Virus record (IMG/VR): IMGVR_UViG_3300022602_000150
Span: 1-49,641 of that record
Reading direction: 5' to 3' (one strand)
Origin: a virus
Length of the DNA stretch: 49,641 nucleotides
Shown here: piece by piece, positions 2,848 to 34,441 of the stretch
Numbering within the stretch: position 1 is the stretch's first letter
Layout: every line of letters begins with the position of its first letter
The notes under the pieces: model-generated
Databases searched by the model: none
What the model saw: the letters and a program-made list of their open reading frames with translations, nothing else
Told to the model about the DNA's origin: nothing
Made by a program: the position numbers and the translations under genes

Positions 2848-2918
2848 GGCTCCTACCGTTAGATTATACGATAAAAGCTGGTTAAGTCAAACCCAGATGC
2901 GGATGGTCAGTAGGAGCC
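2848..2918 (-). promoter_or_regulatory. Inverted repeat that can sequester the ribosome binding site of the 2481-2840 gene
   Basis: GGCTCCTAC (minus strand 2918-2910, the end of the 2907-3848 gene) is perfectly complementary to GTAGGAGCC (2856-2848), which contains the ribosome binding site TAGGAG. The 53-base loop holds the promoter. RNA started at the promoter (about 2856) lacks the first arm; read-through RNA from the late operon has both. This is the kind of logic known for T4 gene e, where only one class of transcript exposes the ribosome binding site. The pairing is seen; the regulation is inferred. Confidence 0.5.
2863..2890 (-). promoter_or_regulatory. Sigma-70-like (early class) promoter of the glycosyltransferase operon
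   Basis: On the minus strand TTGACT (2890-2885), a 16-base spacer and a perfect TATAAT (2868-2863). The predicted start is near 2856, just before the TAGGAG ribosome binding site. Same -35 and following TA as the promoters at 28101, 31475 and 32456. Confidence 0.78.
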
Positions 2919-28100: not shown

Positions 28101-28130
28101 TTGACTTATACCAAGCCGCCAAGGCATAAT
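28101..28130 (+). promoter_or_regulatory. Sigma-70-like promoter before gp47
   Basis: TTGACT at 28101-28106, an 18-base spacer, and CATAAT at 28125-28130. It shares GTTGACTTA with the 31475 site. The gp47 ATG is 26 bases downstream of the -10 box. Confidence 0.65.
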
Positions 28131-30971: not shown

Positions 30972-31478
30972 ATGATGGCGGTGAACGGGAAAAACAAGGG
31001 GTCTGTCTTTGAACGCAAGATAGCTAACATGCTAAGCGAGCGGTTCGAGCAGCGACTCGGCAAGAAGAACGGTTTCAGGCGTAACCCAGATTCGGGTTCG
31101 TTCTTTGGCGGCAACAACGCCGTGAGGACGGAATCGTACGATCTGGATTATGCCGTGTTTGGAGACCTCATATGCCCAAGGAGCTTCGCATACAGCGTGG
31201 AATGCAAGCATTACAAGACGCCTCCCAGCTTCAAATCGGTGGTGTCTCACAGCGTCAAACAGTGGGACGGTTGGCTGGAGCAGGCCGAGAGGGATGCGGC
31301 ATCCAGCAGCCGCAGGATGAGCCTGATCATCAAGTACAACAACGTGGATGAGATAGTGTTCCTCAGGGAACCCATACCAGGCATGCACCACACCAAATAC
31401 AGGGACTATTTCGTGCATCTGCTGGAGGATTGGCTGAAGCTGCCAGACGATGCGTTCTTCGCGGAGGAGCAGCGTTGA
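30972..31478 (+). CDS. PD-(D/E)xK nuclease-like protein (Holliday-junction resolvase type)
   Basis: A 168-residue protein. The order of motifs fits the restriction-endonuclease fold: an N-terminal helix with Glu ('GSVFERKIANMLSERF'), 'FRRNPDSGSFFGG', a strand with Asp ('YAVFGDLICP') and 'YSVECKHYK', which is the E-x-K motif, then 'SLIIKYNN'. The pattern resembles phage resolvases and nucleases of the Hjc/VRR type. Directly after gp47 and gp46, it would suit processing of recombination intermediates. The tandem ATGs at 30972 and 30975 lack a clear ribosome binding site. Its TGA lies inside the -35 box of the next promoter. Nuclease activity is inferred; substrate unknown. Confidence 0.65.
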   Translation: MMAVNGKNKGSVFERKIANMLSERFEQRLGKKNGFRRNPDSGSFFGGNNAVRTESYDLDYAVFGDLICPRSFAYSVECKHYKTPPSFKSVVSHSVKQWDGWLEQAERDAASSSRRMSLIIKYNNVDEIVFLREPIPGMHHTKYRDYFVHLLEDWLKLPDDAFFAEEQR

Positions 31479-31504
31479 CTTACATCCCACCAATAGGCTA
31501 TACA
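31475..31504 (+). promoter_or_regulatory. Sigma-70-like promoter before the 268-residue gene
   Basis: TTGACT at 31475-31480, an 18-base spacer, and TATACA at 31499-31504. The ATG lies at 31533 with GGAGG before it. Confidence 0.68.
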
Positions 31505-31532: not shown

Positions 31533-32339
31533 ATGTTCGGTAACGATTCCAATGGTGGGTTCCAACGCAGGAACTGGGAGAGAACCTATCGGGTCGATCT
31601 CGATGCTGTGACCAAGAGGAACCTACACAACTACATGGGACAGGAGCTGCTGTACTACAACTCCATGGTATCAGAGTTTAACAGCAAGGTCAGGGTGCTC
31701 TACAAGGAGATATCCGACATGAAGGATCAGCAGGAGAAGCTGTGGCTGTTGGTCGCACAGACGGGTCAGGACCTGCGTGCGTTGTCAGGGAAACCCACGG
31801 AGGAGTGGCCGGAGTCATTCAGGTCCCATGCCAACATCATAGCCAAGGATGGTAGATTCTCCATATCCGACCGCATGATGATGATATACGACATCGCCGC
31901 GGCCAAGGCCATATTGGATCCAAACGTGAGGCGATCCATAGCGGCGGAGATACTGCGCTGGGTGCAGCCACAGGCCAAGCAGATAGGCATGGCCAACGAG
32001 AGCTCAACCGGGCAGATGAGATCGCCGCTGCAGATGCTGCAGCCCATGGAGATAGAGAACAAGAGGCACGTGCAGCTAAACGGCGATTCAGCCAGGGTGA
32101 CGTACGACCCGGAGCGCAAGGCCACATCCATCAGGATACCCTACTCCAAGCAGGAGATAGTGATAGAGAACCAGGATCTAACCAAGATGCCGCACGATCA
32201 CATAATCATACGGCAGAAGCCCGGCGTGATACCCAAGATGGACACGCCGTGGCAGCTGACCGTCAAGGAGGGGACAGGCAGGTATCTGCTGGATCTGATT
32301 GACATGGTGCCGTATCCCAAGCGCAAGCCGCGCAGATGA
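31533..32339 (+). CDS. Unknown 268-residue protein with its own early-type promoter
   Basis: A well-supported reading frame: GGAGG eight bases before ATG 31533 and a TTGACT/TATACA promoter 29 bases upstream of the start. The sequence begins MFGNDSNGGFQRRNWERTYR. Residues about 35-80 are helical with a short coiled segment ('FNSKVRVLYKEISDMKDQQEKLW'). Residues 95-160 are helical and charged. The C-terminal 100 residues look beta-rich with basic ends ('HIIIRQKPGVIPKMDTPWQLTVKEG', ending KRKPRR). There is no signal peptide, membrane segment, catalytic motif or zinc ligand set. I do not recognise the family. Position after the recombination genes suggests a DNA- or RNA-related role, but this is only context. 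Confidence 0.6.
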   Translation: MFGNDSNGGFQRRNWERTYRVDLDAVTKRNLHNYMGQELLYYNSMVSEFNSKVRVLYKEISDMKDQQEKLWLLVAQTGQDLRALSGKPTEEWPESFRSHANIIAKDGRFSISDRMMMIYDIAAAKAILDPNVRRSIAAEILRWVQPQAKQIGMANESSTGQMRSPLQMLQPMEIENKRHVQLNGDSARVTYDPERKATSIRIPYSKQEIVIENQDLTKMPHDHIIIRQKPGVIPKMDTPWQLTVKEGTGRYLLDLIDMVPYPKRKPRR

Positions 32340-32348
32340 CGGCGGCCA

Positions 32349-32383
32349 AGAAAAAACCGGAACTGTTAGGCGCAGTTCCGGTT
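32349..32383 (-). terminator. Rho-independent terminator (minus strand)
   Basis: Perfect 11-bp stem AACCGGAACTG / CAGTTCCGGTT (32355-32365 and 32373-32383) with a 7-base loop. On the minus strand it is followed by TTTTTTCTT. On the plus strand there is no U-tract, so it works for leftward RNA. Confidence 0.9.
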
Positions 32384-32421
32384 CAAGGCTACATCGTTGA
32401 ATGCCGGCTCAAAGCATCAAC
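32351..32421 (-). ncRNA. Putative small RNA of about 70 nucleotides
   Basis: A complete transcription unit without a gene: promoter TTGACT-17-TACAAT at 32456-32428 (minus strand), a predicted start near 32421 and a strong terminator ending near 32351. The RNA would have a 5' stem-loop (TTGATGC at 32420-32414 pairing with GCATTCAA at 32404-32397, one bulge), about 13 unpaired bases, and the terminator hairpin. It holds no convincing reading frame. It lies antisense to the leader of the 32461-32757 gene and just beyond the 3' end of the 268-residue gene. I do not recognise the RNA family. It could instead be only the promoter and terminator of a decaying gene, but the tight spacing argues for an RNA product. 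Confidence 0.6.
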
Positions 32422-32427
32422 ATTGAT

Positions 32428-32456
32428 ATTGTAAGGCAAAGAGGGACCTAAGTCAA
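32428..32456 (-). promoter_or_regulatory. Sigma-70-like promoter of the putative small RNA
   Basis: On the minus strand TTGACT (32456-32451), a 17-base spacer, and TACAAT (32433-32428). Same TTGACTTA core as the promoters at 2890, 28101 and 31475. Confidence 0.68.
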
Positions 32457-32460
32457 AAAC

Positions 32461-32757
32461 ATGGAACAGAAAAACAAGAAATTCTTCCCGCAAGAGGCCA
32501 AACCCAGCGCGCCAAAGGCCGCTCCAAAGTCTGGTCGATCTGGCTTCCAAGCTAGGAAGGTGCCGGATTTCCACCATGCCACCCCCGCCGGACCTTGCAC
32601 CAATCTGCGAGATCTATTTGACAACTACGTGGATACCAACTATAAAAAGATGCCAGATGATCGGCGGAAGGCGCTGTGGCAGAAGGTTGCCATGGACATG
32701 CTGTCCGAACCGTTTGGCAGGATAGGCGAAATAATAGAAAGTCATCTCTCCAAGTGA
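32461..32757 (+). CDS. Unknown small basic protein, 98 residues
   Basis: Begins MEQKNKKFFPQEAKPSAPKA; residues 1-35 are Lys/Pro/Ala/Ser-rich and probably disordered. Residues 40-98 ('LRDLFDNYVDTNYKKMPDDRRKALWQKVAMDMLSEPFGRIGEIIESHLSK') look like a compact helical domain. The ribosome binding site is poor: GAGGGA lies about 14 bases before the ATG. The leader overlaps the promoter of the antisense small RNA. Codon use looks like the surrounding phage genes, which supports it being real. I do not recognise it; a small nucleic-acid-binding protein is possible because of the basic N-terminus, but that is a guess. Confidence 0.55.
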   Translation: MEQKNKKFFPQEAKPSAPKAAPKSGRSGFQARKVPDFHHATPAGPCTNLRDLFDNYVDTNYKKMPDDRRKALWQKVAMDMLSEPFGRIGEIIESHLSK

Positions 32758-33152
32758 GGGATCTACGAGGCACATCATACTCAAACATCATCAAGTTAGG
32801 CACACCATAAGGCTCTCAAATCTCCCCAAGACATAGCGAATAAGACTGCATCATACTGGCTCTAGCATGGTGGTGTGATCCACCCGTGAAAGGATAACGA
32901 ACAGGTTATCACACTCACGACAGGGAACGTGTCCGTGAAGCCCTGGTCCAGGAGAACGGAAGAAAGGATCACAGCCGCCGCCTGTCTGCGCCGCCTGTGA
33001 TGCTCGGATGCCGTCACATGCCGTGCGGCTACCGGGCAGTGTGGTAGACATACCATGACCGAACGTGGGGGTTAGATCCCCCGAGTGCAACACCTCACAT
33101 GCTGGAATTAGGCGTTCCGCCAGCTCGCATAACATGCGCAGGGTGTCACGGC

Positions 33153-33238
33153 ATGACCTATAGACTCATCAGAAGGATCTACATGGCGCGCTCCCCGCAA
33201 GGGGAGTGCTATGACCTCAGATCTATCAGAATGATCTA
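33153..33238 (+). repeat. Two imperfect direct repeats flanking a GCAA-capped hairpin
   Basis: ATGACCT followed by ATCAGAAGGATCTA (33153-33159, 33168-33181) recurs as ATGACCT plus ATCAGAATGATCTA (33211-33217, 33225-33238), 57-58 bases apart. Between them is GCGCTCCCC-GCAA-GGGGAGTGC (33188-33209), a 9-bp stem (one G-U pair) with a GNRA tetraloop. Confidence 0.6.
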
Positions 33239-33250
33239 TAGTATAATATG

Positions 33251-33322
33251 ATGGAAACGTTAGATGATGAAAGAGAAGAGCGCAAGCGATTCGAATTGAA
33301 TCATCTAACTGATGTGCGTTAA
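33251..33322 (+). CDS. Possible 23-residue mini-ORF
   Basis: METLDDEREERKRFELNHLT then DVR, stop TAA at 33320-33322 in the centre of the near-palindrome at 33310-33332; an ATG also lies directly before it at 33248. A TATAAT (33242-33247) overlaps the start region but there is no ribosome binding site. Charged composition looks protein-like, yet the length is too small to be sure. Confidence 0.2.
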   Translation: METLDDEREERKRFELNHLTDVR

Positions 33323-33332
33323 ACGCACATCA
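33310..33332 (-). terminator. Near-palindromic hairpin after the gp26 operon
   Basis: TGATGTGCGT-TAA-ACGCACATCA, a 10-bp stem with a 3-base loop, 21 bases past the stop of the small chaperone-like gene at 33354. There is no U-tract on either strand, so it may be a pause or 3'-end-protecting hairpin rather than a true terminator. Confidence 0.45.
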
Positions 33333-33353
33333 CCAAACAGAGAACACGATGCA

Positions 33354-33578
33354 TCAACCTATGAGCTTACCGCCGCTCTTGGGAGCCATCGCCTCAAAGT
33401 GCCTCTCAACGACCTTGGACATGATCCTGCGCTGCTCATTGGTGGTCAGCCATGCGTCGTTGTAATCCAGCCCGCCGTTCATGTAATACACCAGGGTTGA
33501 TATCTCCTCGTTGATGATCTTGCGATTCCTGTCCATGATCTTCAGCATCTCTGTGATCAGGTCAGGATCCATGGTCAT
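33354..33578 (-). CDS. Small tail or baseplate assembly protein (chaperone-like)
   Basis: A 74-residue protein (MTMDPDLITEMLKIMDRNRK...). Conserved-looking part: 'EISTLVYYMNGGLDYNDAW.TTNEQRRIMSKVVERHFEAM'. A '.YYMNGG...DA' pattern following the gp26-like gene is familiar from environmental T4 phages, where it is taken as a hub assembly factor comparable to gp51. The start ATG overlaps the gp26 stop as TGATG (33578); ATG 33572 is an alternative. It is transcribed with the gp26-like gene from the late promoter at 34478-34485. Exact role uncertain. Confidence 0.6.
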   Translation of the reverse strand: MTMDPDLITEMLKIMDRNRKIINEEISTLVYYMNGGLDYNDAWLTTNEQRRIMSKVVERHFEAMAPKSGGKLIG

Positions 33579-34429
33579 CAACGTCGACCGAAAAAACTTG
33601 TTGGATCGAAGTTTAGGCTATCCTGCCATTCGTGGTTGCATGCCTCGCATCTGGCGGGGACCGTTCTCTGTGGACCTATCTCGTTGAGCCTGTTGACCGC
33701 TTCGATCACGGAATCGGCCTGCCTCTTGGATATGTTGACCAGCCATTCGCTTATCTCTGCCGGATCAACGACGGTGATGCCCTGCTTGATCAGCGTCACG
33801 CTGACGATGCTCCTGCTGACCAGATCAAACGTTATCCTGCTGATCTTCTCGATGCTCTCCGCCAGTATGCTGGCCTTGGTGATCTCATCTATGTTCTTGT
33901 TCTGCTCGTCTATGGCCTTGAGGGTCCTGTCCTCCTCGAACTGCTTCTGTATGAACATCTGCCTCATCTCCAAGCTGTAGGGTCTGACCCTTATCTCCAG
34001 CTCATCGTCGATGGTGACCATGGTGTCGCTGTCCTCCACGTACGACATCATGCTCAGCACGTGATCGCAGTTGACCTCGAACGTGTTCTCCTGTCCGCAG
34101 CTCGGGCATCTGCGATCTATGTCATACTTGCCGCCGGTGGTGCTGACCTTGATGCCTAGGAACAGTGCCTCTATGTCGGGGACCAGCAGCTTCTTGACGT
34201 TCTTCACGTCTGGTGCGCAGTTCCTGATCACGCTCTCCAAGGCCTTGCCGTTCAGCATGGCGTCGGGGGTGTTGAGCATGATGTCGTCTATGGCGCTGAG
34301 CCCATATACCGCGATCTCGCCCTCCTCGTTGACGGTGACCTCGTTGTCGGTGTACCATCTACCCAGCGTTGGTAGCTTGAGATACAGCGACGGCTGCCTG
34401 AAATACCGCTTTAGCGGGTTATCGCCCAT
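33578..34429 (-). CDS. gp26: Baseplate hub protein, gp26-like (T4 base plate family)
   Basis: A 283-residue protein from ATG 34429, with GAGG 8 bases upstream; the frame could begin at GTG 34438, which would spoil that spacing. Features: 'NPLKRYFRQPSLYLKLPTLGRWYT' at the N-terminus, 'E.AVYGLSAIDDI..NTPDAMLNGKALESVI.NCAPDV' and 'L.V.DIEALFLGIKV', the usual order in the gp26-like base plate family. CPSC (C108, C111) and CEAC (C261, C264) could bind one zinc ion, bringing both ends together. T4 gp26 is a minor hub component of 208 residues. It is followed by the small chaperone-like gene and driven by a late promoter 48 bases upstream. Confidence 0.75.
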   Translation of the reverse strand: MGDNPLKRYFRQPSLYLKLPTLGRWYTDNEVTVNEEGEIAVYGLSAIDDIMLNTPDAMLNGKALESVIRNCAPDVKNVKKLLVPDIEALFLGIKVSTTGGKYDIDRRCPSCGQENTFEVNCDHVLSMMSYVEDSDTMVTIDDELEIRVRPYSLEMRQMFIQKQFEEDRTLKAIDEQNKNIDEITKASILAESIEKISRITFDLVSRSIVSVTLIKQGITVVDPAEISEWLVNISKRQADSVIEAVNRLNEIGPQRTVPARCEACNHEWQDSLNFDPTSFFGRR

Positions 34430-34441
34430 GTTTTCCACCTC

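Follow-up and report, generated by a model that had tools for sequence, protein, structure and literature searches.

A predicted small RNA gene with a conserved UGAGCC loop between two genes of huge T4-like phages

RNA regulation has been little studied in huge lytic phages, and a small RNA (sRNA) gene in such a genome would escape protein-gene annotation. We asked whether the minus strand of one short intergenic region in a phage of this type encodes an sRNA and, if so, how that RNA would act. The DNA analysed (the window) is the whole of a 49.6-kb virus record (49,641 nucleotides) which by gene content comes from a T4-like phage, with genes for a late sigma factor, an SbcD-like nuclease, a portal protein, a prohead protease and a baseplate hub protein. 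Its capsid protein is 84–95% identical to those of contigs of up to 543 kb, and the closest cultured relative by this protein is Sinorhizobium phage Phosso (469 kb, 77.6%). The region in question lies between two plus-strand genes encoding proteins of 268 and 98 residues (p268 and p98), neither of which matches Pfam or PHROG at the cut-offs applied.

The minus-strand unit occupies positions 32350–32456, between the p268 stop codon and the p98 start. Its features and the genes on either side are given below; member counts refer to the ten related phages described later.

31533–32339, plus strand: gene for the 268-residue protein (p268); the sRNA terminator is directly 3' of its stop codon
32350–32383, minus strand: intrinsic terminator, a perfect 11-bp hairpin (32383–32355) followed by TTTTTTC
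32350–32421, minus strand: predicted sRNA of about 72 nt, matched by covariance model R1; 71–92 nt in relatives
32384–32395, minus strand: single-stranded linker holding a second, diverged copy of the loop motif
32396–32421, minus strand: bulged stem-loop H1 with loop UUUGAGCCG, showing compensatory changes among relatives
32406–32411, minus strand: UGAGCC loop motif, in 9/10 members (the loop of L144 is AAACCUG)
32428–32433, minus strand: -10 box TACAAT, with a spacer of exactly 17 in 10/10 members
32451–32456, minus strand: -35 box TTGACT, matching T[TA]GAC[CTA] in 10/10 members
32461–32757, plus strand: gene for the 98-residue protein (p98); the sRNA runs antisense to the leader of this gene, from about -40 to -111

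Read along the minus strand, the elements follow one another as TTGACT-17-TACAAT-6-GUUGAUGC UUUGAGCCG GCAUUCAAC GAUGUAGCCUUG AACCGGAACUG CGCCUAA CAGUUCCGGUU UUUUC. An earlier note on this DNA had reported a promoter TTGACT-17-TACAAT at 32456–32428 on this strand, followed by a bulged stem-loop and a perfect 11-bp hairpin with TTTTTTC, and all of these are present where it placed them. It had also described the unit as antisense to the p98 leader, which is correct by position, and as adjacent to the 3' end of p268, which agrees with a terminator lying just past the p268 stop. The claim that no protein frame separates promoter and terminator holds as well: no short open reading frame is apparent when the sequences of the window and its relatives are read, and an ATG near the sRNA 5' end is followed by a stop after one codon in the window and at once in most relatives. 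The 5' end itself, at about 32421, is predicted from the position of the -10 box. Folded as a 72-nt RNA, the predicted transcript reaches -26.5 kcal/mol (z = -3.7), with no equally stable structure among 200 shuffles. The motif copy in the linker reads GUAGCC in the window and UGAGCC in most relatives.

A generic consensus promoter scan of the window returned 10 sites against 13.5 expected, and a generic terminator scan returned 13 terminator-like sites against 12.7 expected; neither count is significant, but stricter criteria do give a significant result. The exact pattern TTGAC[AT]-17-TA.AAT has a single match in the window, and four matches against 0.67 expected when up to one mismatch is allowed. 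The earlier note placed this promoter in a class common to three others in the window; TTGACTTA occurs four times against 0.58 expected, and the other sites have plausible -10 boxes. These three sites (2883–2890, minus strand; 28101–28108 and 31475–31482, plus strand) each stand about 45–60 bases upstream of a gene, their -10-like boxes being TATAAT, CATAAT and TATACA with spacers of 16, 18 and 18, and they are probably the phage's host-type promoters. For terminators, the criterion of strength was a T-rich tail after a stem that pairs perfectly over 10 bp or more. By this criterion there are 16 strong terminators in 732 kb of strand from six related records, which sets the background density at 0.022 per kb. 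Six of the 16 belong to the sRNA unit, one per record, and the sRNA terminator is the only strong one in the window.

The p268 region, used as a DNA and a protein query against cultured phages and viral contigs, gave zero matches, and the related contigs were then obtained by way of the capsid protein. The sRNA unit is present between p268 and p98 in ten distinct phage lineages, on contigs of up to 453 kb: the window, L126, L104 (with the same unit in L124), L116, L132, L135, L138, L143, L144 and L140. The nine members other than the window came from a pattern search with one conserved element nearby, motif searches and a protein-profile search. The L147 locus ends at a contig edge and is counted outside the ten.

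In every member the promoter is the top-scoring sigma70-like site among 910 candidate placements per 210-nt region. We do note that the -35 box is a weak TAGAC- in five members and that several individual promoter scores are not significant taken singly. H1 is likewise present in all ten, with UGAGCC in the loop in nine. Across seven sequences, four of its eight stem pairs are altered on both sides and 85.7% of the H1 cells are paired; none of 500 shuffles matched either the cells paired or the covariation score. The terminator is a perfect hairpin of 10–16 bp in all ten members, and the mean identity of its arms is 0.30, against 25% by chance. Arm identity close to chance in hairpins that are perfect indicates that the pairing has been kept while the letters were rewritten. 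The order of constraint is loop, then H1 stems, then terminator arms.

A covariance model (R1) built from seven members matched the three that were not used in building it, L143 (E = 3e-9), L144 (E = 2e-4) and L140 (E = 3e-4). All matches fall at the p268–p98 junction, and the model finds one strong copy in each member record searched. In seven members the RNA folds with z values of -3.7 to -6.9. Compensatory stem changes in related phages, which the earlier note had named as support for an sRNA, are found together with recovery of unused members by the model. Where a relative retains the two neighbouring genes, the promoter, the terminator and both stems are retained as well rather than lost.

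Mirror hairpins are able to form on the plus strand, and it might be supposed that the conserved element is a leader structure of p98. In each of the ten, however, only the minus strand has the T-run 3' of the hairpin; the promoter is on that strand too, and nine G-U pairs of the minus-strand H1 become A-C on the plus strand. On these grounds the leader structure was rejected, and we regard it as the least probable of the readings considered here. Comparison of the related phages establishes the promoter, the two hairpins and the conserved loop, and on the same evidence the minus-strand unit is very probably a real sRNA gene.

The distribution of the unit follows that of its neighbours, since it is found wherever complete p268 and p98 genes adjoin. 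Four relatives (L107, L108, L111 and L113) keep p98, with p268 not seen in the stretch covered, and three (L105, L110 and L130) keep p268, with p98 not detectable; the sRNA unit is absent from both groups. In L107 an upstream RusA-like gene overlaps p98. Model R1 found no copy elsewhere in two long records, G002 (518 kb) and G006 (543 kb).

These losses bear on the suggestion that the hairpin is simply a terminator, halting minus-strand transcription that reads through from the gp26 side ahead of the plus-strand operon. The nearest minus-strand genes (33354–34438) are indeed oriented towards it, and it is the strongest terminator in the window. However, where p268 or p98 is missing the terminator, H1 and promoter are lost together while gp26 remains. 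A terminator acting by itself would also leave unexplained a conserved promoter of fixed spacing and a conserved H1 loop, for which reason this very improbable reading was rejected.

No counterpart of the sRNA was found among cultured phages by DNA similarity, the one weak match covering 30 promoter bases only, and the exact motif pattern had zero matches in the genome_contigs collection. No Rfam 15 family matched the unit in a gathering-level scan of the window, and it was also unmatched in E-value scans of 32300–33400 and of the regions from four relatives. The prediction of a new phage small RNA in the earlier note is thus far supported. Judged by its sequence, the sRNA is a new family of a kind already known, the phage intergenic sRNA with its own promoter and intrinsic terminator. 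The family has been defined by comparison alone, and its loop motif predicts a target sequence.

In our view, the best explanation, which we hold at a probability of roughly 0.6, is that the gene specifies a base-pairing regulator made by the host polymerase, with UGAGCC as its seed. Host RNA polymerase would start a minus-strand RNA of about 72 nt inside the p98 leader from the sigma70-like promoter, and the intrinsic terminator just beyond the end of p268 would stop its transcription. The RNA would fold as two hairpins with a short linker between them, and UGAGCC would serve as the seed for pairing in trans with a GGCUCA-bearing RNA, probably one of the host's. That the sRNA acts mainly by pairing in trans has, we judge, about an even chance of being correct. 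Because the sRNA is fully complementary to the p98 leader, an additional effect on p98 is possible. We infer the transcription, timing, ends and trans pairing from these elements: a sigma70-like promoter makes expression by the host polymerase, probably early in infection, likely, and the U-rich 3' end would be compatible with Hfq.

The invariant loop in its varying frame suggests trans base-pairing or contact with a protein. The loop of a purely cis-antisense RNA could drift, because its complement drifts along with it, and this favours a trans partner or a protein. The main rival is control in cis, as by lambda OOP or P22 sar, which would have the sRNA pair with the p268–p98 transcript in the p98 leader, leading to cleavage or to a block of p98, with the loop merely initiating the pairing. 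It agrees with the full complementarity to the leader that follows from the position of the unit, and with the restriction of the unit to this junction: every complete junction has it and no genome without either gene does. The loop is, moreover, U-turn-like (YUNR, as CUGA or UUGA) in eight of ten members, and the YUNR U-turn motif has a role in antisense RNA loops. Nevertheless, complementarity in cis would persist whatever the loop sequence, yet nine of ten members keep UGAGCC and most repeat it in the linker, while the terminator arms are randomised. The sRNA also begins some 40 nt ahead of the p98 start codon, which leaves the ribosome-binding site uncovered, and the gene linkage is explicable by two or three independent losses of the block. 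We consider control in cis possible but doubtful.

The partner of the loop was sought in phage sequences. GGCTCA is not enriched in six phage records, and among GGCTCA targets at translation starts in these records only the antisense p98 leader recurs. Duplex searches of the sRNA against p98, a large RNA downstream of it and 4 kb upstream were mostly no better than with shuffled queries. A TGGCTCA close to the beginning of the large RNA was weighed as a pairing partner and discarded, that sequence being absent in L116, L135 and L138. In this search, limited to phage sequences, the conserved UGAGCC loop has no conserved phage target. As a separate observation, the p98 homologs of L104, L138 and L143 have repeated AGGCTCA-like heptamers, at intervals of 20–40 bases, towards the 3' end of the gene; these complement the sRNA motif and are weaker or absent in the window.

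The lack of a pairing target in the phages searched would also agree with a loop that contacts a protein, the sRNA binding or titrating a host or phage RNA-binding protein via the repeated UGAGCC, as would the presence of the motif in a hairpin loop and again in the linker of most members. Each RNA has just two UGAGCC copies, however, whereas known titrating RNAs carry far more, and we know of no protein with a preference for UGAGCC. We think this explanation unlikely, and retain seed pairing in trans as the preferred reading.

The large RNA lies downstream of p98, before the minus-strand gp26 pair.

32846–33235, possibly to a hairpin at 33309–33332, plus strand: large structured noncoding RNA of about 390 nt or more

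Over 12 sequences it has 66 consensus pairs, 38 of them with compensatory changes, and its invariant motifs are GTGAAAGG.TAACG, AAAGGA, ACCG and GGAA.TAGG....CCGCC. It is present in L126, L104, L116, L132, L135, L138, L143 and L140 and further in L107, L108, L111, L113, L110, L130, L120 and L105, and so occurs in more lineages than the sRNA. Rfam 15 holds no match to it, and a model of its core (R2) finds one strong copy per genome; in PA5oct and Phosso the same model gave no convincing match. It is possibly a new class of large ornate RNA in huge phages, and may be a more notable find than the sRNA. We note that both of these cultured phages have a gene-poor or gene-free stretch of about 1 kb near the baseplate hub gene, at about 75.85–77.1 kb in Pseudomonas phage PA5oct (NC_071039.1; L198) and at about 229.76–230.77 kb in Sinorhizobium phage Phosso (PV764938.1; L197). 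A further group of contigs (L152, L153, L155, L156, L166, L168 and L170) has, directly after the p268 homolog, a hairpin with a conserved stretch resembling AGATCGATYTCAGATGTAGCTGAATCG. In many cases there follow a box of T4-late type, similar to TATAAATA, and a long sequence that resembles a different structured RNA.

A more far-reaching and tentative proposal is that the sRNA takes part in takeover of the host, being transcribed early by the host polymerase and pairing through its UGAGCC loop with a conserved host RNA, within a two-RNA locus shared with the large RNA. If this were true, the sRNA and the large RNA, on opposite strands and about 400 bases apart, would form a locus kept between the recombination and baseplate genes of these phages. 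A locus that combines an sRNA with a much larger RNA would be a good entry point to the RNA biology of these phages.

Comparison with known phage RNAs indicates several partial likenesses. Lambda OOP RNA (77 nt) is antisense to cII, with an overlap at the 3' end of its coding sequence (PMC12197685, PMC5869508). The window sRNA is similarly a small promoter-to-terminator RNA on the opposite strand between two phage operon genes, complementary to a neighbouring mRNA, but it overlaps no coding sequence, belongs to a lytic T4-like huge phage and has a conserved UGAGCC loop; no sequence-family link between the two was found, an Rfam match being absent. P22 sar RNA (68/69 nt) base-pairs with the mRNA of ant and interferes with initiation of its translation (PMC12197685). 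It is similar in size and in its antisense position near a translation start, whereas about 40 nt separate the window sRNA from the p98 start codon. CfrI, an antisense RNA of about 225 nt at psbA in the T4-like cyanophage S-PM2 (PMC12197685), also comes from a lytic T4-like phage, but the window sRNA is shorter, is not at psbA and was negative in the Rfam search. The ncRNA candidates of PhiKZ (about 100 and 180 nt) resemble it as jumbo-phage RNAs with two stem-loops; they have been interpreted as UTR-derived (PMC8545117), whereas a promoter of its own is predicted for the window sRNA. Lambda PreS, of about 88 nt, is Hfq-dependent and acts on host dnaN (PMC12197685); it is comparable in size and serves as a model of how a phage sRNA can act on its host in trans. 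By analogy, the sRNA described here may be likened in build to lambda OOP and P22 sar and possibly also to PreS.
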